From Ralstonia soli (GTDB lineage: Bacteria > Pseudomonadota > Gammaproteobacteria > Burkholderiales > Burkholderiaceae): DNA of 64,000 nucleotides. The notes beneath the pieces are model-generated. The model was not told where the DNA came from. It saw only the letters and a list, made by a program, of their open reading frames with translations, and searched no databases. Of the stretch, positions 15,488 through 63,907 are shown one piece after another. The number at the start of each line of letters is the position of its first letter. The stretch's first letter is position 1. The translations under genes and the position numbers were made by a program. The stretch covers positions 434,001 through 498,000 of the forward strand of contig NZ_JAMXHT010000001.1 in the NCBI RefSeq assembly GCF_023955655.1, given 5' to 3'.

Positions 15488-15815
15488 CGAAGGCCGAGTT
15501 TTGAACTCCGGGCGTCGAGCTTTTTTGTCGGCACGCCGAGCTCGGAACTCGGAGCGTCGAGCTTTTTGCTCGGCACACCGAGCTCAGGACTCGGGGCGTC
15601 GAGCTTTTTTCTCGGCACGCCGAGCTCAGGACTCGGAGCGTCGAGCTTTTTGCTCGGCACGTCGAGCTCAGGACTCGGGGCACCGAGCTTTTTTCTCGGC
15701 ACGCCGAGCTCGGAACTCGGGGCACCGAGCTTTTTTCTCGGCTCGTCGAGCTCAGGACTCGGGGCACCGAGCTTTTTTCTCCACACGCCGAGTTCAGGAC
15801 CCGAAAAACGAGGCT
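15488..15815 (+). repeat. 42-bp minisatellite of terminator-like hairpins (about 7.5 units)
   Basis: The box CGAGCTTTTT recurs at 15516, 15558, 15600, 15642, 15684, 15726 and 15768, exactly 42 bp apart. Each unit holds a CCGAG/CTCGG dyad and a short stem (CTCGG, 4-base loop, CCGAG or TCGAG) directly followed by C and 5-6 T residues, the form of an intrinsic terminator on the plus strand. Because 42 is a multiple of three, several frames are open through it as 14-residue repeats. It fills the gap between the small membrane protein gene and the convergent MFS gene; no other gene is seen there. Confidence 0.9.
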
Positions 15816-19107: not shown

Positions 19108-19743
19108 TCAGGCCGACTGCATGCCCAGCGTGAGCGTGCCCGCGCCCACCATCACCGCGCCGCCGGTGTAGCCGAAGCGGCGCTGCGCGGTCACGCTGGT
19201 CAGGCGCTTGGCGAGCAGCTTGGCGGCCAGCGCGTACATCGACGCGTTGGCGGCAGCCAGGATCACGAAGGTCGGCAGCAGGATCACGCTTTGCGACAGG
19301 AAGGTCTGGTCGGCCGACATGAACTGCGGCACGAAGGCGACGAAGAAGACGATGCTCTTGGGGTTCAGCGCGGTGACCGTCCAGGCCGACAGGAAGCGGC
19401 GGCCGGCGGACTTCTGCTGCACGGGGATGCTGGCCTCGGGGGCGTCATCCCGCAGGCGGCGGGCGGAAAGGATGGACTTGATGCCCAGATAGACGAGGTA
19501 CGAACCGCCGATGAGCTTGAGCGCCGTGAAGGCCGTGGCCGATGCGGCGAGCAGGGCGCCCGCACCGGCGAGCGAGACGGCCATGGCGGTGGTGTCACCT
19601 GCCGCCACGCCTGCCACCGTGCTCCACGCCGAGCGGCCACGGTTGGCCAGCGAATCACCGATCACCAGCAGGATGGTCGGGCCCGGAATGAGCAGGATGA
19701 TGATGCTGGCGCCGATGAAGGCCAGCCAGGTTTGGAGGGTCAT
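19108..19743 (-). CDS. LysE/RhtB family amino-acid exporter
   Basis: A 211-residue inner-membrane protein with about six spans. The family signature is visible at the start (IPGPTILLVIGDSLANRGR) and in the third span (GGSYLVYLGIKSI). Members export lysine, threonine, homoserine lactones or other amino acids. The ATG at 19743 begins the homology; the frame continues into the upstream repeat element, but those codons belong to the repeat, not the protein. The repeat ends about 98 bp upstream of the start. Confidence 0.85.
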   Translation of the reverse strand: MTLQTWLAFIGASIIILLIPGPTILLVIGDSLANRGRSAWSTVAGVAAGDTTAMAVSLAGAGALLAASATAFTALKLIGGSYLVYLGIKSILSARRLRDDAPEASIPVQQKSAGRRFLSAWTVTALNPKSIVFFVAFVPQFMSADQTFLSQSVILLPTFVILAAANASMYALAAKLLAKRLTSVTAQRRFGYTGGAVMVGAGTLTLGMQSA

Positions 19744-19840: not shown

Positions 19841-20358
19841 TGGTGGTGCATCCCTTGTTTCATCCCCTGCCGGGGCTGACTCACTTTCTTTGGTCTTGCC
19901 CAAAGAAAGTAAGCAAAGAAAGGCGCGCCCGAGATGGCGACTTCCCCTTGGATTTGTGTCGCGGGGAGGGGAAGGAGCCAAACTCGCTGCGCTCAGACAA
20001 GGCTCCTTCCTTTTTCCTCCCCGCAACAAAAATCCAAGGCGCCATCAAGGGCAGGAAAGTCAAAGGCCAAACCATCGATGCTCGGGCCTAAGCGATAAGG
20101 CAACCATCGCGGTGGGTTGGCCTTTGTTTTAGTCTTTTGACGTTGAGCCCTTGATGGCGCCTTGAATTTCTGTTGCAAGGAGGAAAAAGAGGGGAGGCTT
20201 GTCTGAGCGCAGCGAGTTTGCCTCCCCTCCCTCCTTGCGACATCAATTCAAGGAGTCTTTCGCCATCTCGGGCGCGCCTTTCTTTTGCTTACTTTTCTTT
20301 GGCAAGACAAAGAAAAGTGAGTCGGTCCCGGCAGGGAACGAAAGGGGGATGGACCACC
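19841..20358 (+). repeat. Giant cloverleaf repeat element, copy 1
   Basis: Outer arms 19841-19940 and 20260-20358 are inverted repeats (about 95 paired bases; inner ends GAGATGGCGA and TCGCCATCTC). Left side hairpin: 19946-20039 with inner stem GGAAGGAGCC/GGCTCCTTCC and TTTTT on its 3' side. Right side hairpin: 20160-20253 with inner stem GAGGGGAGGC/GCCTCCCCTC and AAAAA on its 5' side. Central stem GCCATCAAGGGC/GCCCTTGATGGC at 20041-20052 and 20147-20158. Both side loops carry the conserved text CTCGCTGCGCTCAGACA or its complement. It fills the gap between lysE and icmF; no gene is seen within it. Confidence 0.92.
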
Positions 20359-20379
20359 AAGGTCAAAAACAAACCCCAA

Positions 20380-23300
20380 CTACATATTCCGCCGATACTG
20401 CCCCCCCACCTCAAACAACGCATGCGTAATCTGCCCCAGAGAGCAAACCCGCACCGCCTCCATCAACACCGCAAACACGTTCTCATCCTCAATCACCGCC
20501 CGCTGCAATCGCTGCAGCATCGCCGGCGCCTCACCAGCATGCCGCGCATGAAACGCTTCCAGCCGCGCGAGCTGACTCTGCTTCTCCTCCTCGCTTGAGC
20601 GCGCCAGCTCAATATGCGGCGACACCACGTTCTCCGCCTCCGGATTGCGGAACGTATTCACCCCGATGATCGGCAGCGAGCCATCGTGCTTGCGCTGCTC
20701 ATACAGCATCGACTCCTCCTGGATCTTGCCGCGCTGGTAGCCGGTCTCCATTGCCCCCAGCACGCCACCGCGCTCGGCAATGCGCTCGAACTCCTGCAGC
20801 ACGGCTTCTTCCACCAGGTCCGTTAACTCGTCGATGATGAAGCTGCCCTGGTTCGGGTTCTCACACTTGGCCAGCCCCCACTCGCGGTTGATGATGAGTT
20901 GAATGGCCAGCGCGCGCCGCACCGATTCCGCCGTGGGCGTGGTGATGGCCTCGTCGTACGCATTCGTGTGCAGGCTGTTGCAGTTGTCGTAAATGGCGAT
21001 CAGCGCCTGCAGCGTCGTGCGGATGTCGTTGAAGGCAATCTCCTGCGCATGCAGGGAACGGCCCGACGTCTGTACGTGGTACTTCAGCTTCTGGCTGCGT
21101 TCGTTCGCGCCGTACTTGTCGCGCATCGTCACCGCCCAGATGCGGCGGGCGACGCGGCCCAGCACGTTGTATTCCGGGTCCATGCCGTTGGAGAAGAAGA
21201 ACGACAGGTTGGGCGCGAAGTCATCGATGTGCATGCCGCGCGCGAGGTAGGCCTCCACATACGTAAAGCCGTTGGCGAGCGTGAAGGCGAGTTGCGAGAT
21301 CGGGTTCGCGCCGGCCTCTGCAATGTGGTAGCCCGAGATCGACACCGAGTAGAAATTGCGCACCTGGTGGTGCACGAAATACGCCTGAATGTCGCCCATC
21401 ACCTTGAGCGAAAACTCGGTCGAGAAGATGCACGTGTTCTGCCCCTGGTCTTCCTTGAGGATGTCGGCCTGCACCGTGCCGCGCACGTTCTGCAGCACCC
21501 ACGCGCGGATCTTCGCTTCTTCATCCTGCGTCGGCTCGCGCTGGTTGTCGGTGCGAAACCGGGCGAGGTTCTGGTCGATGGCGGTGTTCATGAACATCGC
21601 CAGGATGGTCGGCGCAGGGCCGTTGATCGTCATGGAGACGGACGTGTTCGGGCTCGTCAGGTCAAACCCGTCGTACAGCACCTCCATGTCGTCGAGCGTG
21701 GCGATGGACACACCCGCGTTGCCGACCTTGCCGTAGATGTCGGGGCGCACGGCCGGGTCTTCGCCGTACAGCGTGACGGAGTCGAATGCGGTGGACAGCC
21801 GCTTGGCCTCCATGCCCTCGCTGACGAGCTTGAAGCGGCGGTTGGTGCGGAAGGCATCGCCCTCGCCGGCAAACATGCGCGTCGGGTCTTCGTTCTCACG
21901 TTTGAAGGCGAACACGCCGGCGGTGTACGGAAAGCTGCCGGGCACGTTCTCGCGCATCAGCCAGCGCAGCACTTCGCCGTCGTCTTCGTACGGCGGCAGC
22001 ACGACCTTGCGGATGACGGTGCCCGAGAGCGTGGTGTGCGTGAGTGCGGTGCGGATTTCCTTGTCGCGGATCTTCACGACGTACTCTTCGCCGGAATACG
22101 CGCGGCGCAGGTCGGGCCACATGGCAAGCAGCTTGCGTTCGGTGGCACCGAGTTGTGCGTCGCGCTCGGCGGCCTGCTTGTCGAGCGCTGAGAGCGTCTG
22201 CACGCTCGCGCCCGCCCGCTCCAGCATGTGCCGGCTGGCCTGCAACTGCTGACGCTCGCGCGCGAGGCAGCTCTGCATCTGCACGCGGCGGTGATAGCCA
22301 CGTACGGTATCGGCCAGTTCCGCCAGATAGCGCACGCGCGCAGGCGGCACGATGGCGTCATGGCTGGTCGAGCAATGACCGGCGGGGCGCGGCAATGTGC
22401 GATCGTTCAGCACCATGCCGCGTTCGGCCAGTTGGTCAGCCAGTGCGTGGTACAGCGCCGTCACGCCGTCGTCGTTGAAGTGCGAGGCCTGCGTGCCGAA
22501 CACCGGCATGTCTTCGGACTTGGCGTGCCATTGCTCGCGGTTGCGCTGCACCTGCTTGGCGACATCGCGCCACGCATCCTGCGCGCCCTTGCGGTCGAAC
22601 TTGTTGATCGCCACCAGATCGGCAAAGTCGAGCATGTCGATCTTCTCCAACTGGCTGGCGGCGCCAAACTCGGGCGTCATCACGTACATCGACAGATCGA
22701 CGTGCGGCACGATGGCCGCATCGCCCTGGCCGATGCCGGAGGTCTCCACGATGATGAGGTCGAAGCCTGCCGCACGGCAGGCGGCAATCGCATCGGGCAG
22801 CGCTTCGGAAATCTCGCTGCTCGCCTCGCGCGTGGCGAGCGAGCGCACGAAAATGTTCGGATGGTTGATCGCGTTCATGCGGATGCGATCGCCCAGCAGC
22901 GCCCCGCCCGACTTGCGCCGCGACGGGTCGATCGAGATGACGGCGATGCGCAGCCGATCCTGCTGGTCAAGCCGGAAGCGGCGGATCAGCTCATCGGTGA
23001 GCGACGACTTGCCCGCGCCGCCCGTGCCCGTGATGCCGAGCACCGGCGTGTGCAACGTGGCCGCAGCTGCGTGCACGGCCTGGCGCAACGCCGGGTCGAT
23101 GCGGCGCGATTCCAGCGCGGTAATCAGTTGCGCAAGCGCCCGGCGATCACCATTGACCACCGGCTCCAGCGTGGTCGGCGCAAAGGTGGAGAGGTCGATA
23201 TCGCAGCGCCGCACCATGTCGGCAATCATGCCGGCCAGGCCCATGCGCTGGCCGTCTTCAGGGCTGTAGATGCGCGCCACGCCGTAGTCCTGCAGTTCGC

Positions 23301-23667
23301 GGATCTCCGCCGGCACGATCACGCCGCCCCCGCCGCCAAACACCTGGATGTGCTCGCCGCCTCGGGCGCGCAGCGCGTCGATCATGTACTTGAAGTATTC
23401 GACGTGGCCGCCCTGGTAGCTCGACACGGCAATCCCCTGCACGTCTTCCTGCAGGGCGGCGCCCACCACCTCGTCCACCGAGCGGTTGTGCCCGAGGTGG
23501 ATCACCTCGCAGCCCATCGATTGCAGGATGCGCCGCATGATGTTGATCGACGCGTCATGCCCGTCGAACAGCGAGGCGGCCGTCACGAAGCGGACCTTGT
23601 TGCGCACTGCCGTGGGTTCGCTCGCAGGCGTGGGCTCGGCCGCGCGGGCAGCGGAAAGATCGGTCAT
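20380..23667 (-). CDS. icmF: Fused isobutyryl-CoA mutase IcmF
   Basis: A 1095-residue adenosylcobalamin enzyme that interconverts isobutyryl-CoA and n-butyryl-CoA (and pivalyl/isovaleryl-CoA in related proteins). The order is: B12-binding domain (about 25-155; His37 in DGHDAS is the lower cobalt ligand), MeaB-like G-protein chaperone (about 195-420; P-loop GTGGAGKS at 214-221 and NKFD), and a large mutase TIM barrel to the end. Cupriavidus IcmF has almost the same length and plan. The ATG follows AAGGTGGAGAC. It is transcribed away from the beta-barrel gene; a LiuR-like box lies 108 bp upstream. The role fits valine/branched-chain catabolism. Confidence 0.95.
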
Positions 23668-23774
23668 GTCTCCACCTTGTTGAAGTGGGTGCCAGTGGGT
23701 GCCGGCAGGGAATGACGTGTGCGCCGCAAAGGGGCGGTGTGCCAGCCAAGGGCGAAGAGACAGTATTTTCGCGG

Positions 23775-23790
23775 CTTACGTAAACGTCAA
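23775..23790. promoter_or_regulatory. LiuR-like operator before icmF
   Basis: CTTACGTAAACGTCAA is a near palindrome with core ACGT-NN-ACGT. It differs at three positions from the perfect TTGACGTATACGTCAA upstream of the ghrA-liuE operon in this window. It lies 108 bp upstream of the icmF start. The assignment to a LiuR (MerR family) type regulator is by resemblance and by function of the genes; the regulator gene is not in the window. Confidence 0.5.
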
Positions 23791-23962
23791 CCCGCCCTAC
23801 TGGGATCCGTCTTCATGTCAGCCAATTCTTACTTTTAGGACCGATCTGACGGAAACGTCCGCCAACTTCGTCGACCATTTCCTCCACACAAATCACAGGA
23901 AATCACGTTGGCCCCGCGCAAGGGCCGTGGGAGCCCTTGCGGCTCCGGCGTGTCGACGACAC

Positions 23963-24463
23963 ATGGCTATTTCACCTTCCTTGATCACCAGGTTCCGCAG
24001 TGCCGCCATCGGCGTGGCATTGCTGGCCGGCGCATCGCCCGCGCTGGCCGATATCTTCGAGCCCGGCGATGAAATCTCCGTCCAGGCGAGTGTGTACAAC
24101 ATGCACTACAGCCGGGACGACCACTACATCAAGTACTCCCCGCTGCTGGGCGTCGAATGGCGCCGCAACAACGGCTGGCTGGTGGGCGCCGCCGCGTTCA
24201 GGAACTCCTTCGGCCAGCCCTCGCAGCTGGTGTACGGCGGGTACCTGTGGAACCTGGGCACGACCCACTTCTACGGCAAGCTGACCGGCGGCATCCTGCA
24301 CGGCTACAAGGGCGAGTACCAGAACAAGGTACCGCTCAACTACAAGGGCTTCTCGCCGGGCATCCTGCCCGCGCTGGGCTACAAGGCCGGCCCGTTCCGG
24401 ACGGAGGTCCAGCTTTTCTGGACAAGCGGGTTCATGGTGACGATGGGTTACTCGTTCAAATAA
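23963..24463 (+). CDS. Exported beta-barrel protein of unknown function
   Basis: A 166-residue protein with a signal peptide (MAISPSLITRFRSAAIG, cleavage after ALA at residue 29). The mature part alternates aromatic and polar residues in short strands (QASVYNMHYSRDDHYIKYS, GWLVGAAAFRNSFGQPS, LVYGGYLWNLG) and ends MVTMGYSFK, as in small outer-membrane barrels. The size and strand pattern recall PagP-like eight-stranded barrels, but the PagP catalytic residues are not evident. The ATG at 23963 is chosen because the signal peptide starts there. It is divergent from icmF. Confidence 0.7.
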   Translation: MAISPSLITRFRSAAIGVALLAGASPALADIFEPGDEISVQASVYNMHYSRDDHYIKYSPLLGVEWRRNNGWLVGAAAFRNSFGQPSQLVYGGYLWNLGTTHFYGKLTGGILHGYKGEYQNKVPLNYKGFSPGILPALGYKAGPFRTEVQLFWTSGFMVTMGYSFK

Positions 24464-24621
24464 GCCCGCCGCCAGCCCGTCTCGCTTTGCGCAAATACCA
24501 AAGGGCGTGCGCCGCCGCGAGGCCCGGTCTCGGTGCAAGACCTAGCTTGTACACATTGGATACAACTCGGTAGAGTCGGCGCAGGGTCGGAAACGGGTCC
24601 GGCCACAGGGGGATATTCCGA

Positions 24622-25647
24622 ATGCCAAGCCGCGCAACGATGCGCTGGTGTCTGACTGCCATGCTGGCGTGGTCCAGCCACGCACTGGCGTGGGACTACA
24701 CGCCCGGCGCCATCCCCGGCCTGATCAGCGTGCTTGGCTTTCTCACGGTGCAAACGCAGGCGCTCGACCGTGCCATCCAGCGCTTTCCCGACCAGCGGGA
24801 AGAACTCATCCGCGCGCGCACGCAATTCGACACCACGTTTCCGCAGGCGCTGGCCCGCACCCGCCGCCTGATCGCCGGGATTCCGCTGGCCGACGACGAA
24901 CGCCAGTTGCTGATCGGGCGCGTACTCGATGTCCACCAGCCCAGCGTGAACAACGCCACCCAGACCGCCCAGACCGCCCACGCCCTGGCCGAACGCGTGG
25001 CCGCGCGCGCGCAAGGCAGCCAGGACCGCGCGACATTGCAGACGCTGCTGGCCGTCGTCTACGACGAGCGGCCCGCCGACGAGTTGACCAGCCGCTTCAC
25101 CCAGCCCGTGACGTTGTCTGACTGGCCGAACGCACGCGGCGCCAGCGTGAGCCTGAAGCTGCCGTTTTCGTGGGAACGCGTCCCGCCCACGGCGCCGCGC
25201 AAACCGGACCCGGCCCGCGTGGCGATCGGCGCGTGGGCCAACCAGGGGGGCTCGGGGCTCTCGCGCATCGAACTGATCGTGCGCCCCACCGAGGGCGACC
25301 CCGAAACCGTGCCCGACACCCGCGAGCCCCGCTGGATGCGCGATGCGGTCCGGCAGGCCGTGGCACTGCCCTGCAAGCTGATCGGCTGGGGCACGGAAAC
25401 GTTCGCGGGCCGCCCCGGCGTGTGGGCCAGCTACATCGCCGAATCGCCAGGCCCGCATGTGCCGCGCGCCGCGGGCAACACACTGGTCGGCCGCGTCTTC
25501 ATCGTGCCGACCGACGGTGCGTTGTTGATGCTGCACATGCAGTCCGCCGCCGCTTCGCCCGAGCAAGCCAGCGCGGTCCGGGTGCGGTACGAGCCGCTAT
25601 GGAATGCAGTGGCGGCCTCCTTCAGTGTGTCTGGCGCCAAGCCCTAG
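24622..25647 (+). CDS. Secreted hypothetical protein
   Basis: A 341-residue protein with a signal peptide (cleavage likely after ALA at residue 23, before WDYTPG). The first half is helical and Gln/Arg-rich (residues 45-140, possible coiled coil). The second half has beta-type segments and contains SWERVPPTAPRKPD and a C-terminal strand region ending VRYEPLWNAVAASFSVSG. No domain is recognised. It is probably periplasmic or surface-exposed. The ATG follows AGGGGGATATT. Confidence 0.6.
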   Translation: MPSRATMRWCLTAMLAWSSHALAWDYTPGAIPGLISVLGFLTVQTQALDRAIQRFPDQREELIRARTQFDTTFPQALARTRRLIAGIPLADDERQLLIGRVLDVHQPSVNNATQTAQTAHALAERVAARAQGSQDRATLQTLLAVVYDERPADELTSRFTQPVTLSDWPNARGASVSLKLPFSWERVPPTAPRKPDPARVAIGAWANQGGSGLSRIELIVRPTEGDPETVPDTREPRWMRDAVRQAVALPCKLIGWGTETFAGRPGVWASYIAESPGPHVPRAAGNTLVGRVFIVPTDGALLMLHMQSAAASPEQASAVRVRYEPLWNAVAASFSVSGAKP

Positions 25648-25655
25648 GCTGCCAA

Positions 25656-25672
25656 CGCACCATCACGGCGCA
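25656..25672. promoter_or_regulatory. NtrC-like enhancer site upstream of amt
   Basis: CGCACCATCACGGCGCA matches the NtrC consensus TGCACC-N5-GGTGCA at 10 of 12 defined positions. It lies about 127 bp upstream of the -24 element of the proposed sigma54 promoter, a normal enhancer distance. NtrC binding is inferred. Confidence 0.5.
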
Positions 25673-25798
25673 TTCGCCGCGCCGAACGCACCAAATTCAA
25701 CCGGTTACGCACCGATTTCGGGATGCGCCATGCTTACCGGCCGTCGGGCGCGGCGCGCGCACGGCCATGGTGCGCCACGACACCGTTTTGCACATCGT

Positions 25799-25814
25799 TG
25801 GAACAGGAATTGCA
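25799..25814 (+). promoter_or_regulatory. Sigma54 (-24/-12) promoter of amt
   Basis: TGGAACAGGAATTGCA has GG at 25800-25801 and GC at 25812-25813 with exactly ten bases between, and matches the consensus TGGCAC-N5-TTGCA at all but one defined base. It lies about 80 bp before the amt ATG, as expected for a nitrogen-controlled ammonium transporter. Confidence 0.75.
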
Positions 25815-25892
25815 TTGGTCGGCGGCTTTTGCGTCATTTACGGGCAATCTGCACCGCAATGGCGCCAGTCATCAACCCGCACGACAACCACA

Positions 25893-27095
25893 ATGAACAC
25901 CATCAAAACCGGGGGCGACGCGCTCTTCATCCTGCTGGGCGCGATCATGGTGCTCGCCATGCACGCCGGCTTCGCGTTCCTTGAGCTGGGCACCGTCCGC
26001 AAGAAGAACCAGGTCAATGCACTGGTCAAGATCCTGGTCGACTTTGCCGTGTCGACCATTGCGTACTTCTTCATCGGCTATTCCGTGGCCTATGGCGTCA
26101 ACTTCTTCACAGGCGCCGACGTGCTCGCACAGCAGAACGGCTACGAGCTGGTGAAGTTCTTCTTCCTGCTGACGTTCGCCGCGGCCATCCCGGCCATCAT
26201 CTCGGGCGGCATTGCCGAGCGCTCGCGCTTCGAGCCGCAACTGGCGGCGACCTTCGTGCTGGTGGGCTTCGTCTACCCGTTCTTCGAGGGCATTGCGTGG
26301 AACGAACGCTTCGGCATCCAGCACTGGCTGCAGGCCGTGACGGGCGCGGAGTTCCACGACTTTGCCGGCTCGGTGGTCGTGCACGCGGTGGGGGGCTGGA
26401 TCGCGTTGCCGGCCGTGCTGCTGCTGGGGGCGCGCCACGGCCGCTACAAGGACGACGGCCGCATCGCCGCGCATCCGCCGTCGAACATCCCGTTCCTGGC
26501 GGCCGGTGCGTGGGTACTGGCGGTGGGCTGGTTCGGCTTTAACGTGATGAGCGCACAGACGCTGGACAAGATGAGCGGCCTGGTCGCCATCAACTCGCTG
26601 ATGGCCATGGTGGGCGGCACGCTCACCGCCTGGTGGATGGGCAAGAACGACCCGGGCTTCTCGTACAACGGCCCGCTGGCCGGCCTGGTGGCCGTGTGCG
26701 CCGGCTCCGACGTGATGCACCCGCTGGGCGCACTGGCCGTCGGCGGCATTGCCGGTGTGCTGTTCGTGTGGATGTTCACGCGCGTGCAGAACGTCTGGCG
26801 CATCGACGATGTGCTCGGCGTGTGGCCGCTGCACGGGCTGTGCGGCGCATGGGGTGGCATTGCGGCCGGCATCTTCGGGCTGAAGGCGCTGGGCGGCCTG
26901 GGCGGCGTATCGTTCTGGGCGCAGGTGGCGGGCACGGCGGGCGGCATCGTGATTGCCCTGATTGGCGGCACGGTGGTGTACGGCACGTTGCGCAAACTGG
27001 TGGGCCTGCGGCTGGACCGCGAAGCCGAATTCATGGGCGCCGATCTGGCCATCCACCGCGTCTCCTCCACGCCGGAATCGGAAACGCACTGGTAA
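25893..27095 (+). CDS. amt: Ammonium transporter Amt
   Basis: A 400-residue inner-membrane protein with 11 or so spans that conducts ammonia/ammonium for nitrogen assimilation. The twin pore histidines are present: His164 in VVVHAVGGW and His314 in HGLCGAWGG. The periplasmic gate region and the AmtB-like signature around SGGIAERSRF are also visible. The ATG at 25893 is favoured over an in-frame ATG at 25767 because the sigma54 promoter (25799-25814) lies between them. No glnK gene is adjacent. Regulation by NtrC under nitrogen limitation is likely. Confidence 0.92.
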   Translation: MNTIKTGGDALFILLGAIMVLAMHAGFAFLELGTVRKKNQVNALVKILVDFAVSTIAYFFIGYSVAYGVNFFTGADVLAQQNGYELVKFFFLLTFAAAIPAIISGGIAERSRFEPQLAATFVLVGFVYPFFEGIAWNERFGIQHWLQAVTGAEFHDFAGSVVVHAVGGWIALPAVLLLGARHGRYKDDGRIAAHPPSNIPFLAAGAWVLAVGWFGFNVMSAQTLDKMSGLVAINSLMAMVGGTLTAWWMGKNDPGFSYNGPLAGLVAVCAGSDVMHPLGALAVGGIAGVLFVWMFTRVQNVWRIDDVLGVWPLHGLCGAWGGIAAGIFGLKALGGLGGVSFWAQVAGTAGGIVIALIGGTVVYGTLRKLVGLRLDREAEFMGADLAIHRVSSTPESETHW

Positions 27096-27169
27096 GCCTG
27101 TCGATCCAACATCGAGTGCGGCGCTTGCTAGAGTGAAAGGCGTCCTTTCGCCCACTGCAGGAGTGCCGC

Positions 27170-27532
27170 ATGCCCGATATCGATGTCGATCCCAACCACC
27201 CCATCACCGTCGAAGCCAACCCGCGCCGCGTGACGGTGACCTTCAACGGCTTCACCATCGCCGACTCGCGCATGGCGCGCACGCTGCGTGAGGCGTCGTA
27301 CCCACCGGTGCAGTACATCCCGCGCGACGACGTGCAGATGAACCACCTGGAGCGCACGCAGCATCACACCCATTGCCCGTACAAGGGCGATGCGTCGTAC
27401 TACACCATCGTCGCCGATGGCGAGCGCGCCGAGAACGCCGTCTGGACCTACGAGCAGCCCAAACCCGCCGCGCGCGAAGTGGGCAGCTACCTCGCCTTCT
27501 ATCCGGACAAGGTGATCATCCGGGAGGAATGA
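27170..27532 (+). CDS. DUF427 domain protein
   Basis: A 120-residue protein of the DUF427 family, a small beta-rich fold of unknown function. The typical stretches are RRVTVTFNGFTIADS, PPVQYIPRDDV, HCPYKGDASYY and the ending AFYPDKV. It is probably cytosolic. The ATG follows GCAGGAGTGCCGC. It lies 74 bp after amt and is followed by a terminator. Confidence 0.87.
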   Translation: MPDIDVDPNHPITVEANPRRVTVTFNGFTIADSRMARTLREASYPPVQYIPRDDVQMNHLERTQHHTHCPYKGDASYYTIVADGERAENAVWTYEQPKPAAREVGSYLAFYPDKVIIREE

Positions 27533-27616
27533 GCGCTGACATGCCCATGTCACGCCGGTGGCGCACGATGCGCACGTTCCTCTTCTCACGGATGCGCTTT
27601 CCGTGAAAGTTCAAAA

Positions 27617-27652
27617 CCCGGCGCAGGCAGCACCTGTGGCCGGGATTTTTTT
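27617..27652 (+). terminator. Rho-independent terminator after the DUF427 gene
   Basis: CCCGGC (27617-27622) pairs with GCCGGG (27639-27644), with an additional inner CAGG/CCTG pairing, and is followed by ATTTTTTT. It separates the DUF427 gene from the AraC-type gene. Confidence 0.8.
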
Positions 27653-27695
27653 GCCTTCCGTTTTTGCTCCAGCTCGGTGCTATCCTCAGCCGATC

Positions 27696-28418
27696 ATGCT
27701 GGACTTCCGCACCTACGGCCTTGCCGCTCCTCCGCACGCGCACGACTTCATGCAGGTCGTGATGCCCGCACGCGGCATCCTGGAGATGGACGTGGACGGC
27801 CACGGCGGCCGCGTCGACACGCACCACGCCGCGCTCATCCCCGCGGGCGCCACGCATGCATTCGAAGCCACGGGCGCCAACCGCTTCATCGTGTTCGACA
27901 TCCCAGGCCAAAGCGTTGACGCTCCGAGCCTGGGCGGCCTGGCGGATCGCGTGTTCTTTCCGCTCACGCCCGGCCTGCGTGCGCTCGCCACGTGGCTGCA
28001 AGACGCGCCCATCGTCGATGCCGTGCTCACGAATGCGTGGTCGTCATTGGCGCTGGCGACGCTGGCCGCGCATCCGGCCAATCAATCCACGCAGTTGCGC
28101 GCACGCCGCGATGCGCGTGCCGAGCGCGCGTGGCACGCCATCGAGCACCGCTATGCCGAACCGCTCACCGTCGAGGCCCTCGCCGCTGACGTGGGTGTGA
28201 GCGCCCGGCGCCTCGCCACGCTCTTCCGTGCCACGTACGGCACCACGCTGCATGCACGCCTGGCCGAGGTGCGGCTGCGCCATGCGCTGACGCTGCTTGA
28301 AACCACCACGCTGCCCATCGCCGAGATTGCCGCGCGCACCGGCTACTACGACCAGAGCGCCCTCACGCGACACCTCAAGGCCGCGCACGGCATCACACCT
28401 GCCGCCGTACGGCGCTAG
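27696..28418 (+). CDS. AraC family transcriptional regulator
   Basis: A 240-residue regulator. The N-terminal cupin (residues 1-90; PPHAHDFMQVVMPARGILEM, HHAALIPAGATHAFEATG) probably binds a small ligand; the C-terminal AraC domain (about 140-240) has two helix-turn-helix units (LTVEALAADVGVSARRLATLF and IAEIAARTGYYDQSALTRHL, regions). The ATG at 27696 begins the cupin and lies after the terminator; the frame extends upstream through the terminator, which argues against an earlier start. The divergent or downstream EamA transporter gene, 108 bp away on the same strand, is a possible target. Confidence 0.85.
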   Translation: MLDFRTYGLAAPPHAHDFMQVVMPARGILEMDVDGHGGRVDTHHAALIPAGATHAFEATGANRFIVFDIPGQSVDAPSLGGLADRVFFPLTPGLRALATWLQDAPIVDAVLTNAWSSLALATLAAHPANQSTQLRARRDARAERAWHAIEHRYAEPLTVEALAADVGVSARRLATLFRATYGTTLHARLAEVRLRHALTLLETTTLPIAEIAARTGYYDQSALTRHLKAAHGITPAAVRR

Positions 28419-28526
28419 GCACCACCCCGTTTCCGGTTTTGCCAAAGCGCGGCCGTCTTCGCCAAGACGGATGCCACGCGCACGCGCACAGTGACGGTTC
28501 GATTGATCTTCCCGACCAGGTTTCAC

Positions 28527-29495
28527 ATGGCTGTTGGCGACACCTCCTCTGCAACGCACCTTGCGCACACACCGCGCGATCACCTCACGGGCGTCGGCTA
28601 TGGCGTTGCGGCGGGGGCACTGTGGGGCGTCATCTTTCTCGCACCGAAGATGCTGCCGCAGTTCTCGCCGCTGGCGCTGTCAGCCGCGCGGTATGTGCTG
28701 TACGGCGTGCTGTCGCTGGTGCTGGCGCTGCCCGTGTGGCGCACGCTATGGCGCAAGACCACCCGGCGCGATTGGGCGGCGCTGCTGTTGCTCTCGCTGC
28801 CGGGGAACATCCTGTACTACCTGTGCGTGGCGGGCGGTGTGCAGCGCGCGGGCGTGGCACCGGTGTCGCTCATCGTCGGGCTGCTGCCGGTGACGGTCAC
28901 GCTGGCCGGTGCAGCCGAGCGCGGCAGCCTGCCCCTGCGGCGGCTGGCATTACCGCTGTTGATGGCGGTCGGCGGCGTGGTGTGCATCTACCTGGATGCG
29001 CCGGACATGCATGCGGATGCGGGCGGCAGAACCTATTTCATCGGACTGCTGATGGCGGCGGGCGCGTTGGCGTGCTGGACGGTATATGCGGTGTGCAATG
29101 CGCGGTACCTGCGCGCACATCCGCAGTTCACCAGTCGGGAGTGGTCGTTGTTGACGGGCGTCGCCACGGGGGCGCTGTCATTGGCACTGGCCGTGCCGGC
29201 GTTTTCTGTGCCCGGCATGGCGACGGCTTCTGCGCAGCCCGCATCGGCCTGGGCGATGTTCTGGCTGGTGAATGCGGGCGTGGCGCTGGGGGCATCCGTG
29301 CTGGGCAATAGCCTGTGGAATGCGGCCAGCCGGAAATTGCCGTTGACGCTATCCGGGCAGTTGATCGTGTTCGAGACGGTGTTTGCGTTGGTTTATGGAT
29401 TTGTTTATGAGGCACGCTGGCCACATGGGTTGGAGGTGGTGGCTGCGGTTTTGCTGATGGGTGGGGTGGCGCTGGCTGCGCGGCGGCATGGGTAG
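28527..29495 (+). CDS. EamA/DMT superfamily transporter
   Basis: A 322-residue inner-membrane protein with about ten hydrophobic spans in two EamA repeats (GVAAGALWGVIFLAPKMLPQ to about 145; second repeat 165-320). The family exports amino acids or other metabolites. The ATG at 28527 is chosen; a GTG at 28491 would add 12 residues and lacks a ribosome binding site. The AraC-type gene just upstream may regulate it. The stop lies 31 bp before repeat copy 2. Confidence 0.85.
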   Translation: MAVGDTSSATHLAHTPRDHLTGVGYGVAAGALWGVIFLAPKMLPQFSPLALSAARYVLYGVLSLVLALPVWRTLWRKTTRRDWAALLLLSLPGNILYYLCVAGGVQRAGVAPVSLIVGLLPVTVTLAGAAERGSLPLRRLALPLLMAVGGVVCIYLDAPDMHADAGGRTYFIGLLMAAGALACWTVYAVCNARYLRAHPQFTSREWSLLTGVATGALSLALAVPAFSVPGMATASAQPASAWAMFWLVNAGVALGASVLGNSLWNAASRKLPLTLSGQLIVFETVFALVYGFVYEARWPHGLEVVAAVLLMGGVALAARRHG

Positions 29496-29525
29496 GGTTT
29501 TGTTTTGGGTTTTGTTTTTGGCCTT

Positions 29526-30044
29526 GGTGGTCCATCCCCCTTTCGTTCCCTGCCGGGACCGACTCACTTTTCTTTGTCTTGCCAAAGAAAAGTAAGCAAA
29601 AGAAAGGCGCGCCCGAGATGGCGAAAGACTCCTTGAATTGATGTCGCAAGGAGGGAGGGGAGGCAAACTCGCTGCGCTCAGACAAGCCTCCCCTCTTTTT
29701 CCTCCTTGCAACAGAAATTCAAGGCGCCATCAAGGGCTCAACGTCAAAAGACAAAAACAAAGGCCAACCCGTCGCGGGGTTGGCCTTGTCGTTTGGGGCT
29801 GGCGCACCGATGGTTTCGCCTTTGACTTTCCTGCCCTAGATGGCGCCTTGAATTTCCGTAAGCGGGCGGAAAAAAGACGGGGAACTGTTTGAGCGAAGCG
29901 AGTTTTCCCCGTCTCCGCCCGGTTACGGAAATTCAAGGGGTGGGTCGCCATCTCGGGCGCGCATTTCTTTGCTTACTTTCTTTGGGCAAGACCAAAGAAA
30001 GTGAGTCAGCCCCGGCAGGGGATGAAACAAGGGATGCACCACCA
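29526..30044 (-). repeat. Giant cloverleaf repeat element, copy 2 (inverted relative to copies 1 and 3)
   Basis: Outer arms 29526-29624 and 29945-30044. Left side hairpin 29631-29724 (inner stem AGGGGAGGC/GCCTCCCCT followed by CTTTTT). Right side hairpin 29846-29938 (inner stem GACGGGGAA/TTCCCCGTC, AAAAAA on its 5' side). The central region has GCCATCAAGGGC on the left and GCCCTAGATGGC on the right, and an inner stem GGCCAACCC/GGGTTGGCC. The left half is the reverse complement of the right half of copy 1, almost without change over about 230 bp. It fills the gap between the convergent eamA and DUF1275 genes; no gene is seen in it. Confidence 0.92.
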
Positions 30045-30063: not shown

Positions 30064-30858
30064 TCAACGCTGCATCACCGCCAACCCCAACAATATCCCC
30101 ACCGGTGGCAAAACACACCAAAACGACAACAAAGCAAACGCCAACGCCCCCAACACCGCACCCGTGGCAAAGCCAATCAACGGCGGCACCATCTTCCGCA
30201 ACCGCGTGCGAGCGGCATCCTTCTGCATGCCGCCAGGCGACAACACCTCCACCACATCGATCACGATCTGCGTGGTATTGCCCGTCATGATGGTCGTCGG
30301 CGCCTGATCCCCCAGCACGAGACGCCCCTTGGCGTTCTGCACCCCCATCGCCGCCACGCCGATCAGCCCGACAACAATGGTGGCTGGCGCATCGGCAGAT
30401 TGCAGCGGCAGCGCCAGCAAGCCCGCCACCATGAACGCCAGCAGCAGCGCAGCCTGAGCCAGCAGCAGCGGCCGCAGTGGCGCTACACCGCGCCGCGTGA
30501 GCGCCGACACCGCCAGCTTGGTCGCGGCCACCGCCACCACGAACACCGGCAGCGCCAGCAGCTTGGCCAGCACGCCTTCACCGGAGCCCGCGAGCTCCAG
30601 ACCGATCATCACGAAGTTGCCCGTGACATGCGCGGTGAACAGCCCGAACAGCGCCGCGAAGCCGACCACATCCACATAGCCCGCCACGAACGCCAGCAAG
30701 CTGCCCTGCACAATCAGGAAGCGTGCGGATGATGACGCGGCCACCGGAGCCGCTGCCGTTTCAGAAGGCAAAGCACGAACACCCGAAGGCGCCCCAGAAA
30801 CCGCGGAAATCTGTCGTGGGGACGTTGGCCGTGCGCGCCTTCTGGTGCGAATGGCCAT
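30064..30858 (-). CDS. DUF1275 (YoaK-like) membrane protein
   Basis: A 264-residue protein with six or seven hydrophobic spans. The DUF1275 pattern is clear: FVAGYVDVVGFAALFGLFTAHVTGN (residues about 57-81), GVAAMGVQNAKGR and TTIMTGNTTQ. Function is unknown; possibly a transporter. About 45 basic and Ala/Ser-rich residues precede the first span. The first ATG that fits is at 30858, which makes the start overlap the 3' end of the amidohydrolase gene by about 98 bp, an unusually long overlap. A later start is possible. Confidence 0.8.
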   Translation of the reverse strand: MAIRTRRRARPTSPRQISAVSGAPSGVRALPSETAAAPVAASSSARFLIVQGSLLAFVAGYVDVVGFAALFGLFTAHVTGNFVMIGLELAGSGEGVLAKLLALPVFVVAVAATKLAVSALTRRGVAPLRPLLLAQAALLLAFMVAGLLALPLQSADAPATIVVGLIGVAAMGVQNAKGRLVLGDQAPTTIMTGNTTQIVIDVVEVLSPGGMQKDAARTRLRKMVPPLIGFATGAVLGALAFALLSFWCVLPPVGILLGLAVMQR

Positions 30859-32599
30859 GGACCGTGCACGCGCCCGCACAGTGATGGACCTGCTGCTGCA
30901 GCGGTGCCGCCGGCCGCCAGTGCCCCGGCACGCGCGAGACGGGCGACCATTCCGGCAACACCGGAATCGGCGGCGGGCCGAACTCGTCGAATTCCGCGGC
31001 GCCGTAGACGATGCGCCCGCCCACCACCGTCAGCACCGATTCGATGGTCTTGATGTCCGCCTCGTCCACGGTAAAGAAATCCGCCGAGAGCACTGCCAGG
31101 TCGGCGAGTTGCCCTGCCTTGATCTGCCCCTTGTTGCCCTGGTCGGCCGAGAACCAGGCGCTGCCGTGCGTGTACAGCTCCAGCGCCACTTCGCGCGGCA
31201 GCCCTTCCGGATAGAGCGCCATGCCGCCGACCGTGCGGCCGCTCGCCAGCCAGTACAGCGACGTCCACGGGTTATAGCTCGATACGCGCGTGGCATCGGT
31301 GCCGGCGCCCACGGGCACGCCTTCGGCCAGCATGCGCTTGATGGGCGGTGTCTGTTCTGCGGCAGCGGCGCCGTAGCGGTCGACAAAGTATTCGCCCTGG
31401 AAGGCCATGCGATCCTGAATGGCGATGCCGCCGCCCAGCGCGCGCACGCGTTCAATGTTCGCGGGCGAGATCGTCTCCGCATGGTCGAAGAACCACGGCA
31501 GGCCGTTGAATGGGATGTCGCGGTTCACGCGCTCGAACACGTCGAGCATGCGCGAGATGGATTCGTCGTACGTGGCGTGCAGGCGGAATGGCCAGCGTTG
31601 CGCAACGAGGTGGCGCACCACGGTCTCCAACTCCTGCTCCATCGTCTCGGGCAGGTCAGGGCGTGGTTGCAGGAAGTCTTCAAAGTCTGCAGCGGAGAAG
31701 ACCAGCATTTCGCCCGCGCCGTTGTGGCGGAAGAAGTCGTCGCCTTGGCGGTATTGCACGCTGCCGGTCCAGTTCTTGAAGTCGGCCAGTTCCTCTTTCG
31801 GCTTTTGCGTGAAGAGGTTGTAAGCGATGCGGATGGTGAGCTGGTTCTGCGCCGACAGCTCGCGGATGACTTCGTAGTCTTCCGGGTAGTTCTGGAAGCC
31901 GCCGCCCGCATCGATGGCGCTGGTCACACCGAGGCGGTTCAGCTCGCGCATGAACTGGCGCGTGGAGTTGACCTGGTATTCCGGTGGCAGCTTCGGCCCC
32001 TTTGCCAGCGTGGAATACAGGATCATCGCGTTGGGCTTGGCGATCAGCATGCCGGTGGGCTCGCCGCTGGCGTCGCGCTGGATCTCGCCGCCGGGCGGGT
32101 TCGGCGTGTCCTTGGTGTAGCCGACCTGGCGCAGCGCCGCGCGGTTGAGCAGCGCGCGATCGTACAGGTGCAGCACGAACACCGGTGTGTCGGGCGCGGC
32201 CTGGTTCAGCTCTTCGAGCGTGGGCATGCGGCGTTCGGCAAACTGGAACTCCGTCCAACCGCCCACCACGCGTACCCATTGCGGCGACGGCGTGCGCGCA
32301 GCCTGCTCCTTGAGCATGCGCATCGCATCGGCCAACGAGGGCACGCCTTCCCAACGCAGTTCCAGGTTGTAGTTCAGTCCACCTCGGATCAGGTGCAGGT
32401 GCGAATCGTTCAGGCCGGGGATGACGGTGCGCCCGCGCAGGTCGATCACCTGGGTGGAGGCACCGCGCTGTGCCATCACGGTGGCGTCGTCGCCCACGGC
32501 AACGAAGTGGCCGTCGCGCACGGCAACGGCGCTGGCAGAGGGGCGTTCGCGGTCGACCGTGTGGAAGCGGCCGTTGTGCAGGATGAGGTCGGCGGTCAT
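30761..32599 (-). CDS. Amidohydrolase family protein (YtcJ-like)
   Basis: A 612-residue metal-dependent hydrolase. The N-terminal metal site HLH lies in IPGLNDSHLHLIRGG, and the C-terminal catalytic Asp region is GVPVGAGTDATRVSSYNPW. A composite beta-sandwich is formed by residues 1-60 and the C-terminal part. Relatives cleave amides or cyclic amides; substrate unknown. The C-terminus has an odd His/Cys-rich tail (HHCAGACTVHGHSHQ) in the part that overlaps the DUF1275 gene. The ATG at 32599 follows the DoxX stop by 4 bp, so the two are coupled. Confidence 0.85.
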   Translation of the reverse strand: MTADLILHNGRFHTVDRERPSASAVAVRDGHFVAVGDDATVMAQRGASTQVIDLRGRTVIPGLNDSHLHLIRGGLNYNLELRWEGVPSLADAMRMLKEQAARTPSPQWVRVVGGWTEFQFAERRMPTLEELNQAAPDTPVFVLHLYDRALLNRAALRQVGYTKDTPNPPGGEIQRDASGEPTGMLIAKPNAMILYSTLAKGPKLPPEYQVNSTRQFMRELNRLGVTSAIDAGGGFQNYPEDYEVIRELSAQNQLTIRIAYNLFTQKPKEELADFKNWTGSVQYRQGDDFFRHNGAGEMLVFSAADFEDFLQPRPDLPETMEQELETVVRHLVAQRWPFRLHATYDESISRMLDVFERVNRDIPFNGLPWFFDHAETISPANIERVRALGGGIAIQDRMAFQGEYFVDRYGAAAAEQTPPIKRMLAEGVPVGAGTDATRVSSYNPWTSLYWLASGRTVGGMALYPEGLPREVALELYTHGSAWFSADQGNKGQIKAGQLADLAVLSADFFTVDEADIKTIESVLTVVGGRIVYGAAEFDEFGPPPIPVLPEWSPVSRVPGHWRPAAPLQQQVHHCAGACTVHGHSHQKARTANVPTTDFRGFWGAFGCSCFAF

Positions 32600-60097: not shown

Positions 60098-62122
<2,025 letters not shown>

Positions 62123-62160
62123 GGTGTTGGTACGTCTCCTGGTTTTGTTTTTGCACTTGT

Positions 62161-62745
62161 GGTGCATCCCTGGTTTCATCCCCTGCCGGGGCTGAGTCAC
62201 TTTCTTTGTCTTGCCAAAGAAAGTAACCAAAGAAAGGCGCGCCCGAGATGGCGACCCCTTCCTTGAATTTGTGTAACCGTGCGGAGAGGGAGGCAAACTC
62301 GCTTCGCTCAGACAAGCCTCCCTCTTTTTTCCGCCCGCTTACACAAATTCAAGGCGCCATCTAGGGCAGGAACGTCAACGGCCAAACCGTTGGTGTGCGT
62401 GTCCCGTCAGGCTCTTGTTTGTTGCTGTGTGCTGCTTCGCTTCGCTCGCTGTCTCCAACTGGTTTTGCTCGCTTCGCTTCGCGTCTTGCCGCGTACCTAC
62501 TACTGCGTGTGTGCTTCGATGGTTTGGCGGTTGGAGCCCTTGATGGCGCCTTGAATTTCTGTTGCAAGGAGGAAAAAGGAAGGGGAACTGTCTGAGCGAA
62601 GCGAGTTTTCCCCTTCCCCTCCTTGCGACATAAATTCAAGGGGAAGTCGCCATCTCGGGCGCGCCTTTCTTTTGCTTACTTTTCTTTGGCAAGACAAAGA
62701 AAAGTGAGTCAGCCCCGGCAGGGGATGAAACAAGGGATGGACCAC
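62161..62745 (+). repeat. Giant cloverleaf repeat element, copy 3 (with longer centre)
   Basis: Outer arms 62161-62254 and 62647-62745. Left side hairpin 62261-62354 (inner stem GAGGGAGGC/GCCTCCCTC followed by TTTTTT). Right side hairpin 62549-62641 (inner stem GGAAGGGGAA/TTCCCCTTCC, AAAAA on its 5' side). Central stem GCCATCTAGGGC (62355-62366) pairs with GCCCTTGATGGC (62536-62547), with a 169-bp centre holding repeated CTTCGCTTCGC blocks. It lies between bioB and liuD. Orientation is like copy 1. No gene is seen in it. Confidence 0.92.
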
Positions 62746-62775
62746 AAGCAAAAAAACCATCCCTACTCAAACGCA

Positions 62776-63858
62776 TCAATCGGCAGGCGTAATGTCGATA
62801 TGGCAATGCGAAGAATGCGAGTGCCCAGCATCAGCACTTTGATGCAGATGATCCTGCACCTCCACCCGCATCCCCAACCGCGCAAGCAGCTTGCGATCCG
62901 CATCCGCTTCCGGGTTATCCGTCGTCAGCAGCTTCTCGCCATAGAAGATCGAATTCGCCCCCGCCATAAAGCACATCGCCTGCAGCGCATCGTCCATCGC
63001 CTCGCGGCCAGCAGACAAACGCACCATCGCCTTGGGCATCGTGATCCGCGCCACGGCAATCGTCCGCACAAAATCAAACGGGTCCAGTTCCTCATTCCCC
63101 GCCAGCGGCGTGCCTTCCACCTTCACCAGGTTGTTGATCGGCACCGAATCCGGATACGGCTCCATGTTCGCCAGCTCGGCAATCAGCCCCGCACGCTCGT
63201 GCACCGATTCCCCCAGCCCGACGATGCCGCCGCAGCACACATTGATGCCGGCATCACGCACGTGCTCGAGCGTGTCGAGACGATCCTGATACGTGCGCGT
63301 GGTGATGATCTCGCCGTAGAACTCGGGTGCGGTGTCGAGGTTGTGGTTGTAGTAGTCCAGCCCCGCATCCTTCAACTGCGCAGCCTGCTCCTGCTTGAGC
63401 ATGCCCAGCGTCACGCACGTCTCCAGCCCCATCGCCTTCACGCCGCGCACCATGTCGGCCACGGCATCGAGTTGATGCGGCTTCGGGTTGCGCCACGCGG
63501 CGCCCATGCAGAAGCGGCTCGCGCCGTTTTGCTTGGCGCGCGATGCGGCTTCCAGCACTTCGTCGATCGGCATCAGCTTTTCAGCCTCAACACCGGTGTC
63601 GTAGCGCGCCGATTGCGGGCAGTACGAGCAATCTTCCGGGCAGCCGCCGGTCTTGATGGACAGCAGCGTCGAGAGCTGCACCGCATTCGCATCAAAGTTG
63701 GCGCGGTGCACCTGCTGTGCCTGGAACAGCAGGTCATTGAACGGCAGTGCGAACAGCGCTTCGATGGCTTCGCGGCTCCAGCGCGCATCGGGCGCCTGAC
63801 CTGGCGTGACAGGCGCTTTGGCGGCGTTCGGAACGAAGTTGAGCGGAGTGGATTGCAT
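62776..63858 (-). CDS. bioB: Biotin synthase BioB
   Basis: A 360-residue radical SAM enzyme that inserts sulfur into dethiobiotin. The 4Fe-4S cysteines are Cys73, Cys77 and Cys80 (CPEDCSYC), with MGAAWRNP and [16 protein letters not shown] as family blocks and the 2Fe-2S ligands further on. A His-rich C-terminal tail ([20 protein letters not shown]) is an addition to the core. It lies inside the liu cluster, where biotin is needed by the carboxylase. The ATG follows GGAAGTCCTC; a TTG at 63873 is not needed. Confidence 0.95.
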
Positions 63859-63907
63859 GAGGACTTCCTTCAATCGAATCTTGATGCGTGGTTTTGTAGT
63901 GATGCGG

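Follow-up and report, generated by a model that had tools for sequence, protein, structure and literature searches.

Very large REP/BIME-like palindromic repeats at gene 3' ends in Ralstonia, probable sites of recombination

Introduction

REP sequences, alone or as the inverted doublets of BIMEs and REPINs, are intergenic palindromic units that occur in many copies and keep their stems through mutation. A REP unit measures 20-40 bp (PMC3733652). More than 100 REPs are usually found per genome, and the RAYT genes are described as always flanked by them (PMC2817692). Subclasses of Y1 proteins without REP-like sequences have also been reported (PMC6006769). In Pseudomonas putida, seven copies of the insertion sequence ISPpu9 lie inside REP sequences (PMC8450116). 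Enterobacteria carry the MITE-like intergenic repeats RU-1 to RU-3, of 103-168 bp (PMC2759123). Quasi-palindromes in general can be corrected by template switching (PMC7202029).

Here we describe a genus-wide family of large hairpin repeats, often paired, in Ralstonia. Three copies lie in a 64-kb stretch of Ralstonia soli DNA (the window, 64,000 nucleotides, contig C1 positions 434001-498000), where an earlier note had described them as giant cloverleaves of about 500 bp. Its reading of the anatomy was right, whereas both the unit and the four-way form it proposed were wrong. The available parts of PMC2817692, PMC6006769 and PMC3733652 do not mention Ralstonia, and the literature searched, outside which most subscription-journal papers lay, yielded no description of the family. 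When short consensus stretches were compared with paper texts, the matches listed comprised only the 10-mer, under unrelated titles.

Results and Discussion

Three copies in the window

Direct reading of the DNA placed the copies at 19841-20358, 29526-30044 and 62161-62745, as in the earlier note. All three have outer arms of ~95 bp per side (GAGATGGCGA/TCGCCATCTC), two ~94-nt hairpins with CCTTG..CAAGG closure and the stem GCCATCWAGGGC/GCCCTTGATGGC, again in agreement with it, and all three are intergenic by codon-score gene calls. Gene calls throughout come from our own codon-score caller, not from an annotation. The halves of each copy (types L, S and Sg, see below) and the neighbouring features are:

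19108..19743, - strand: gene with its 5' end toward copy 1 (own gene call, locus L063)
19841..20059, + strand: copy 1 left half, type Sg, short arm hairpin with one more GG/CC pair (nhmmer 248 bits, L063)
20141..20360, - strand: copy 1 right half, type L, long arm hairpin (nhmmer 244 bits)
20380..23667, - strand: MeaB/mutase fusion gene (IcmF-like), 3' end abutting copy 1 (Pfam MM_CoA_mutase, MeaB, B12-binding)
20388..29495, no strand: 9.1-kb segment between copies 1 and 2 (icmF etc.), inverted relative to relatives (flank mapping)
28491..29495, + strand: EamA-family transporter gene, 3' end abutting copy 2 (Pfam)
29524..29743, + strand: copy 2 left half, type L (nhmmer 244 bits, L064)
29760..29787, - strand: terminator-like hairpin with T-rich tail, in the spacer between the copy 2 halves (consensus scan only)
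29826..30044, - strand: copy 2 right half, type Sg (nhmmer 238 bits, L064)
30064..30879, - strand: DUF1275 protein gene, 3' end abutting copy 2 (Pfam)
60098..62125, - strand: biotin carboxylase (MCC alpha-like) gene, 5' end beside copy 3 (Pfam)
62157..62373, + strand: copy 3 left half, type S (nhmmer 236 bits, L065)
62531..62747, - strand: copy 3 right half, type L (nhmmer 245 bits, L065)
62776..63873, - strand: radical-SAM/BATS (biotin-synthase-like) gene, 3' end beside copy 3 (Pfam)

Over the 220 aligned nt, the right half of copy 1 has the same sequence as its counterpart on the left of copy 2; hence these two copies are not independent. Rfam 15 gave no match reaching the gathering score in the 64-kb window; the 11 sub-threshold rows for copy 3 comprised 10 miRNA precursor families and one Burkholderia sRNA. 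Elsewhere in the window, a 42-bp tandem repeat (15505-15800, seven copies) consists of small palindromes followed by T-runs and looks terminator-like, and ARAGORN called a probably spurious tRNA-??? with a four-letter anticodon amid long ORFs (27322-27414).

The repeating unit is a 215-nt half

The unit that repeats is a half of 215 nt, self-contained and consisting of a small arm hairpin and one long hairpin, not the 500-bp cloverleaf. From outside to inside, a half starts with the tip GGTSCATCCC, continues with the mini-hairpin CCCCTGCCGGGG and the T/A-rich arm hairpin ACTTTCTTTG-TCTTGC-CAAAGAAAGT, whose loop is TCTTGC, and then with AAAGAAAG. The inner part is made up of box 1 (GCGCCCGAGATGGCGA), a ~94-nt hairpin and box 2 (GGCGCCATCWAGGGC). 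Box 1 is complementary to box 2 within the same half, and thus the two boxes fold with the hairpin between them into one long stem. The resulting long hairpin of ~125 nt has a conserved apical loop (ACTCGCTKCGCTCA, found in 148/160 halves) and an unpaired T-run. One long stem is both the consensus fold of 45 halves and the fold of a single half (z -5.8).

The 16-mer GCGCCCGAGATGGCGA was found 39 times exactly, and 47 times with at most one mismatch, in the 5.73-Mb R. soli genome (31 contigs); the reversed pattern, used as a control, had 0 occurrences in the same genome. A half-unit profile applied to the regions around 16-mer and BLAST matches detected 47 halves above 60 bits and 46 above 100 bits. 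Halves below 100 bits were left out of this 46-half set, and those below 120 bits out of the pair, single and type counts. The R. soli alignment holds 45 of the 46 halves (44 distinct), with L082:3061 omitted for its run of N. The 46 halves are arranged as 14 facing pairs (28 halves) and 18 singles, and in 8 of the 14 pairs the model-to-model spacer is shorter than 100 bp. A genome-wide number of many dozens, as forecast from the window, was therefore reached by half-units and not by whole pairs.

Together with two relatives, G010 and G011, the three genomes hold 160 halves (46, 52 and 62), which make up 57 pairs and 46 singles at 103 sites. Sites were located by the 16-mer in G010 and G011 and by the 16-mer plus BLAST in R. 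soli, and halves lacking the 16-mer may be missed in these counts. The note had held that its reading would fall if copies rarely kept both arms; both are present at somewhat more than half of the sites, which goes part of the way against it. Neighbouring halves less than 1.6 kb apart are head-in in 57/57 cases, and in this the repeat shares the inverted doublets typical of REPINs.

Halves fall into three types by their arm hairpin, which is long (L), short (S) or short with one more pair (Sg). The 47 pairs with a spacer below 200 bp comprise 34 of L with S or Sg, 8 S+S, 3 S+Sg and 2 partly untyped, and none is L+L. Among the 46 single halves, 39 are S, 2 L, 1 Sg and 4 untyped.

The family resembles REP, BIME and REPIN sequences in being intergenic, palindromic, present in many copies, single or in inverted doublets, and in keeping its stems through mutation. 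A unit of 215 nt with two hairpins nevertheless differs from one of 20-40 bp (PMC3733652), and the 46, 52 and 62 halves per genome compare with the usual >100 REPs (PMC2817692). Unlike REP/BIME, the Ralstonia repeat has two unit types that are mostly cross-paired, and its sites are largely common across species. The GT[AG]G foot 5' of the REP hairpin compares with a GTGG-like tip in 88/160 halves.

Stems inside a half are conserved with almost no G-U intermediates

In the 44 distinct halves, 98.5% of cells are paired, compared with 91.2% after shuffling. Two-sided changes occur in 25 of the 59 consensus pairs, and 228 cells are changed on both sides against 5 on one side only (G-U). These counts are of cells and sequences, not of events, and are inflated by blocks copied between loci. 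Covariation score, double-change counts and percentage of paired cells all exceeded those of every one of 500 shuffles. A fifth measure pointed in the opposite direction, as the number of further pair types (34) was at or below that of all 500 shuffles; this low count reflects the near absence of G-U pairs. Pairing fell to 40-55% when the partner column was slid by one to three positions, and hairpin arms folded with their own partner reached -52.3 kcal/mol, against -38.5 kcal/mol when partners were swapped between halves (150/160 halves parsed). In the kept inner stems, and in describing a structured, intergenic, multi-copy family, the note was supported.

RNA stems usually change via G-U intermediates. 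The near absence of such pairs suggests constraint on DNA, or copying of one arm from the other; the structure would then be kept as DNA or via templated copying between hairpin arms and not mainly as RNA, although scarcity of G-U alone does not exclude an RNA function. Quasi-palindrome template switching (PMC7202029) could, as we infer, yield two-sided changes without G-U intermediates; it is a mutational process, whereas the Ralstonia repeat is an element.

Partner halves are less alike than expected

If the four-way junction proposed in the note, a tRNA-like RNA or a cruciform, were the selected form, the two halves of a pair would have to match. A pair can indeed be drawn in this way, and 57/103 sites are pairs. 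Yet partner halves match each other less well than re-paired halves do: identity was 0.822 in the 57 pairs of the three genomes, against 0.851 expected on re-pairing within a genome. The fraction of 1000 shuffles giving a value as low was 0.022 in R. soli and 0.000 in each of the other two genomes. When shuffling was confined to type combinations, 0.842 was expected, and 0/500 shuffles were as low as the observed value. Identical hairpins were found in 0/57 pairs of partners, compared with 5/4252 among all within-genome pairs of halves. The test rests on three related genomes with many sites in common.

The low likeness of partners disfavours the outer four-way stem. Folding energy lies far below that of shuffles (z -22.9 for copy 3 as RNA and -25.5 for copy 1 as DNA), as it would for any long inverted repeat, and the minimum-energy fold is in both cases one long hairpin. 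With box 1 pairing to box 2 inside the half and single halves at 46/103 sites, we consider it very improbable that the four-way junction is the form under selection, and a tRNA-like or other non-coding RNA cloverleaf was rejected as the kept unit.

Halves gather at gene 3' ends

At 49 distinct sites (orthologous sites counted once), the neighbours are 70 gene 3' ends and 28 gene 5' ends, and divergent gene pairs flank 2 of the 49. Single halves between tandem genes are read from the inner to the outer end at 8/9 distinct sites, or 16/18 when all three genomes are counted. In tandem pairs with an L half, transcription meets this half before its partner in 10 of 11 distinct cases and in 22/30 over all three genomes; the distinct-site count prefers the R. 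soli copy and makes the rule look stronger, and the all-genome count repeats orthologous sites. The L-first rule is accordingly a weak one.

In G010 and G011 the repeat is concentrated around dnaA, which lies at the start of the chromosome contig (TIGR00362 in both; the adjacent dnaN was checked in G010). Within 0.5 Mb of dnaA we found 21/32 of the 16-mer units in G011 (9.2 expected) and 17/23 in G010 (6.6 expected), and the profile-found units gave 21/31 and 17/23, respectively. Since G010 and G011 have most sites in common, this is nearer to one observation than to two.

The position at 3' ends raises the question of whether the repeat ends transcription, as it perhaps does. For a gene reading into its outer end, each half presents a G+C-rich stem, a loop and a T-run, the 9-bp top stem being followed directly by the unpaired T-run. 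The T columns are at least 90% T in the 45 aligned halves, and at least four T precede CC in 127/160 halves. A two-way terminator or insulator selected as RNA, with a pair stopping transcription from both sides, would also fit the scarcity of divergent sites and the leading L half of tandem pairs, though the latter is less regular over three genomes. Several results argue against it. The excess of two-sided over one-sided changes would be unusual under RNA selection, tandem single halves mostly lie the opposite way, with the T-run on the other strand, and 215 nt is more than a simple terminator needs. Moreover, a scan with sigma-70 and terminator consensus patterns found 19 terminator sites in 19 kb, near the shuffled level (13.9 +/- 4.1). 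We therefore judge such a terminator unlikely to be what the family is selected for.

Sites are inherited in place and copies exchange sequence

Of 32 R. soli sites, 20 in G010 and 23 in G011 have both flanks at a unit, and at two such sites per relative the flanks lie at two different units, which is the inversion described below. Among the flank-match combinations listed, a single matched a single and a pair matched a pair. Thus, sites are mostly inherited in place. At matched single sites the elements are 0.88 identical (8 and 10 sites), compared with 0.85-0.86 for unmatched halves, and hairpin identity is 0.81-0.83, below that of the flanking DNA (88-90%). Such low identity is as expected if copies exchange sequence.

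Loss of copies was seen as short palindromic remnants. Of five small remnants in R. soli, G011 has an intact pair opposite two and an intact single opposite a third; the other two had no counterpart in the relative DNA examined. At one of these sites (site B), the full pair of G011 corresponds to a short palindrome in R. soli and G010 and to no element in G006.

Pairs lie at the breakpoints of two chromosome rearrangements

In R. soli, the 9.1-kb segment that separates copies 1 and 2 has the opposite orientation to that in G003, G006, G010 and G011 (four flanks each) and in G008 (three of four flanks). The inversion accounts for the half that copies 1 and 2 have in common. At the copy-1 site G003 and G006 have no element, so pairs at both ends of the segment are seen in G010 and G011 only; the copy-2 site of G006 holds only a remnant.

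A second event concerns a 27-kb block of metabolic genes, which in G003 (contig C3, local positions 97402-125724 of the run examined) lies inside the copy-2 element site. G010 and G011 have a single pair at this site. The block itself lies in G010 between two other pairs, ~0.3 Mb beyond dnaA if the contig is circular, and among the loci examined its left edge matched the G010 pair only. From their translations we take its genes in G003 to be gcl, pyk, hemN, gcv and others. They match loci at other element sites of R. soli, G010 and G011, and an imported island in G003 was therefore rejected.

The junctions examined coincide with element pairs. Judged by the breakpoints of these two events, the simplest explanation is homologous recombination, possibly with an excised circle. 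Assembly contigs also start or end at the element (L131; G015 C8 and C12; G012 C38 and C265; G001 C242), and the run of N in R. soli lies within a half.

On balance, we lean towards reading the family as palindromic repeats of REP/BIME type but of very large size, which lie at gene 3' ends and act as recombination sites. The unit is one 215-nt half, five to ten times the length of a REP/BIME unit, mostly adjoining gene 3' ends alone or as a facing pair. Copies are inherited in place, probably exchange sequence with one another and, as pairs, probably serve as an oversized BIME and as sites of homologous recombination. A nearly symmetrical facing pair could recombine either way round and so invert or move the segment between two pairs. 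Near-perfect palindromes would be lost through central deletion, after which pairs that match poorly, mostly L + S, would remain along with short palindromic scars; this may be the reason why partners avoid likeness.

If so, intergenic palindromic repeats would extend to units five to ten times their usual length, and Ralstonia would offer natural data on how bacteria tolerate long palindromes, in the form of mismatched partners, scars and two-sided changes. The pairs would give rise to rearrangements of Ralstonia chromosomes at defined breakpoints, and might explain why several Ralstonia assemblies break at repeat sites. More speculatively, and doubtful at present, the facing pairs, being nearly symmetrical, could form a network across the chromosome, denser near the replication origin, of ports between genes that recombine in either orientation, with the pairs kept mismatched (L + S). 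Through such ports whole gene blocks could be flipped or transferred without breaking genes, and the L + S mismatch would let pairs recombine with others without destroying themselves as perfect palindromes.

Distribution of the family

The 16-mer is present in 16/16 Ralstonia genomes with 11 to 62 matches each, and one locus from each of 15 Ralstonia relatives had a half or partial half in every case. Outside the genus, 12/25 sampled genomes contained the 16-mer (1 to 6 matches), and 14 loci taken from those genomes had no half. Partial halves outside the genus were detected in Noviherbaspirillum aerium (44 bits, L140) and in a Burkholderiales MAG (40 bits, L153). Arm-length matches came from 15 and 14 plasmid records, and in no case was 80% of the query covered. 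A phage origin was rejected, as 88 viral-contig stretches have the 16-mer and 0/88 a half (nhmmer).

Across 369 genomes of the class, R. soli included, 24 gave a partial match to a half at 1e-5, in most cases to the arm hairpin and sometimes to the apical loop; this survey scored at most two candidates per genome. Read by eye, some of these loci (e.g. L273 and L298) have, in other families, both an arm hairpin and a long one, together with a loop resembling CTCGCTTCGCTCA. Judging by these sequence likenesses, there may be a wider class of repeats of which the Ralstonia family is a single branch. Loci L272-L300, from distant genomes of the taxonomic class, carry hairpin repeats that share the arm or apical-loop motifs.

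Candidate mobilisers and a loop-specific insertion sequence

By comparison with REP sequences, a Y1 protein is a candidate mobiliser. A Y1_Tnp match is present in 16/16 Ralstonia genomes, one each and two in G001. In R. soli the REP-transposase-like gene (L101, 1291-2190) lies beside the glutamate synthase gene gltB. The half could accordingly be an oversized REP and the pairs REPINs, amplified as single-stranded DNA by this protein. Head-in pairs, covariation of DNA type and the GTGG-like foot at the outer tip are in keeping with this, and the scars resemble 'double-foot' REPs, which possibly arise by central deletion of an inverted dimer (PMC6006769). However, no element match was found within 6-8 kb around the Y1 gene at 14/14 loci (14 of the 16 genomes), in contrast to the REP flanks described as constant for RAYT genes (PMC2817692), and the R. 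soli protein scores 55.6 bits against the cut-off of 80 of NCBIfam REP_Tyr_transpos. An association between Y1 and element across the 369 class genomes was likewise rejected, since the family, counted by eye, is not clearly enriched (18/24 genomes with element modules, with at most two candidates per genome scored, versus 223/345 without). Given Y1 subclasses reported to be without REP-like sequences (PMC6006769), the Ralstonia protein may be unrelated to the repeat. Amplification by the Y1 protein appears improbable. Because its unit length and a transposase-like gene with no element beside it at the loci examined set the family apart, we do not file it under REP or REPIN.

A different kind of mobile element was found within the repeat itself. 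In G008, all eight identical copies of an IS481-family element (NF033577) lie within the arm-hairpin loop (L269, L456-L463). They are flanked by the duplicated hexamer GCAAGA in seven cases and by GTCTTG, one base off in the same loop, in one. The host site of one copy (L456) looks reduced to its arms. The element had no match at 1e-50 in the other 15 genomes of the genus.

The terminal inverted repeats of the pairs, and presence or absence that differs between species at two sites, would fit a MITE, a non-autonomous transposon mobilised by a DDE transposase. However, an autonomous element with the same terminal repeats was not encountered; the IS481-family element inserts into the repeat and has ends unlike it; single halves, which have one end only, are common; the two sites display no target duplication, though their flanks have diverged; and at site B the absence in R. 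soli and G010 is explained by internal deletion, as a scar is left. A MITE is thus quite unlikely. RU-1 to RU-3 (PMC2759123) are also intergenic, 100-200 bp long and compared with MITEs; by their description, they differ from the Ralstonia repeat, which has single halves without a second end and no visible target duplication.

The location of the IS481-family element recalls ISPpu9, an insertion sequence that likewise sits in a palindromic repeat family (PMC8450116). The Ralstonia case differs in the family of the element (IS481), in the regularity of its position (8/8 copies in one hairpin loop) and in the much larger repeat, and it illustrates clearly how an insertion sequence can be specialised for a single hairpin loop.
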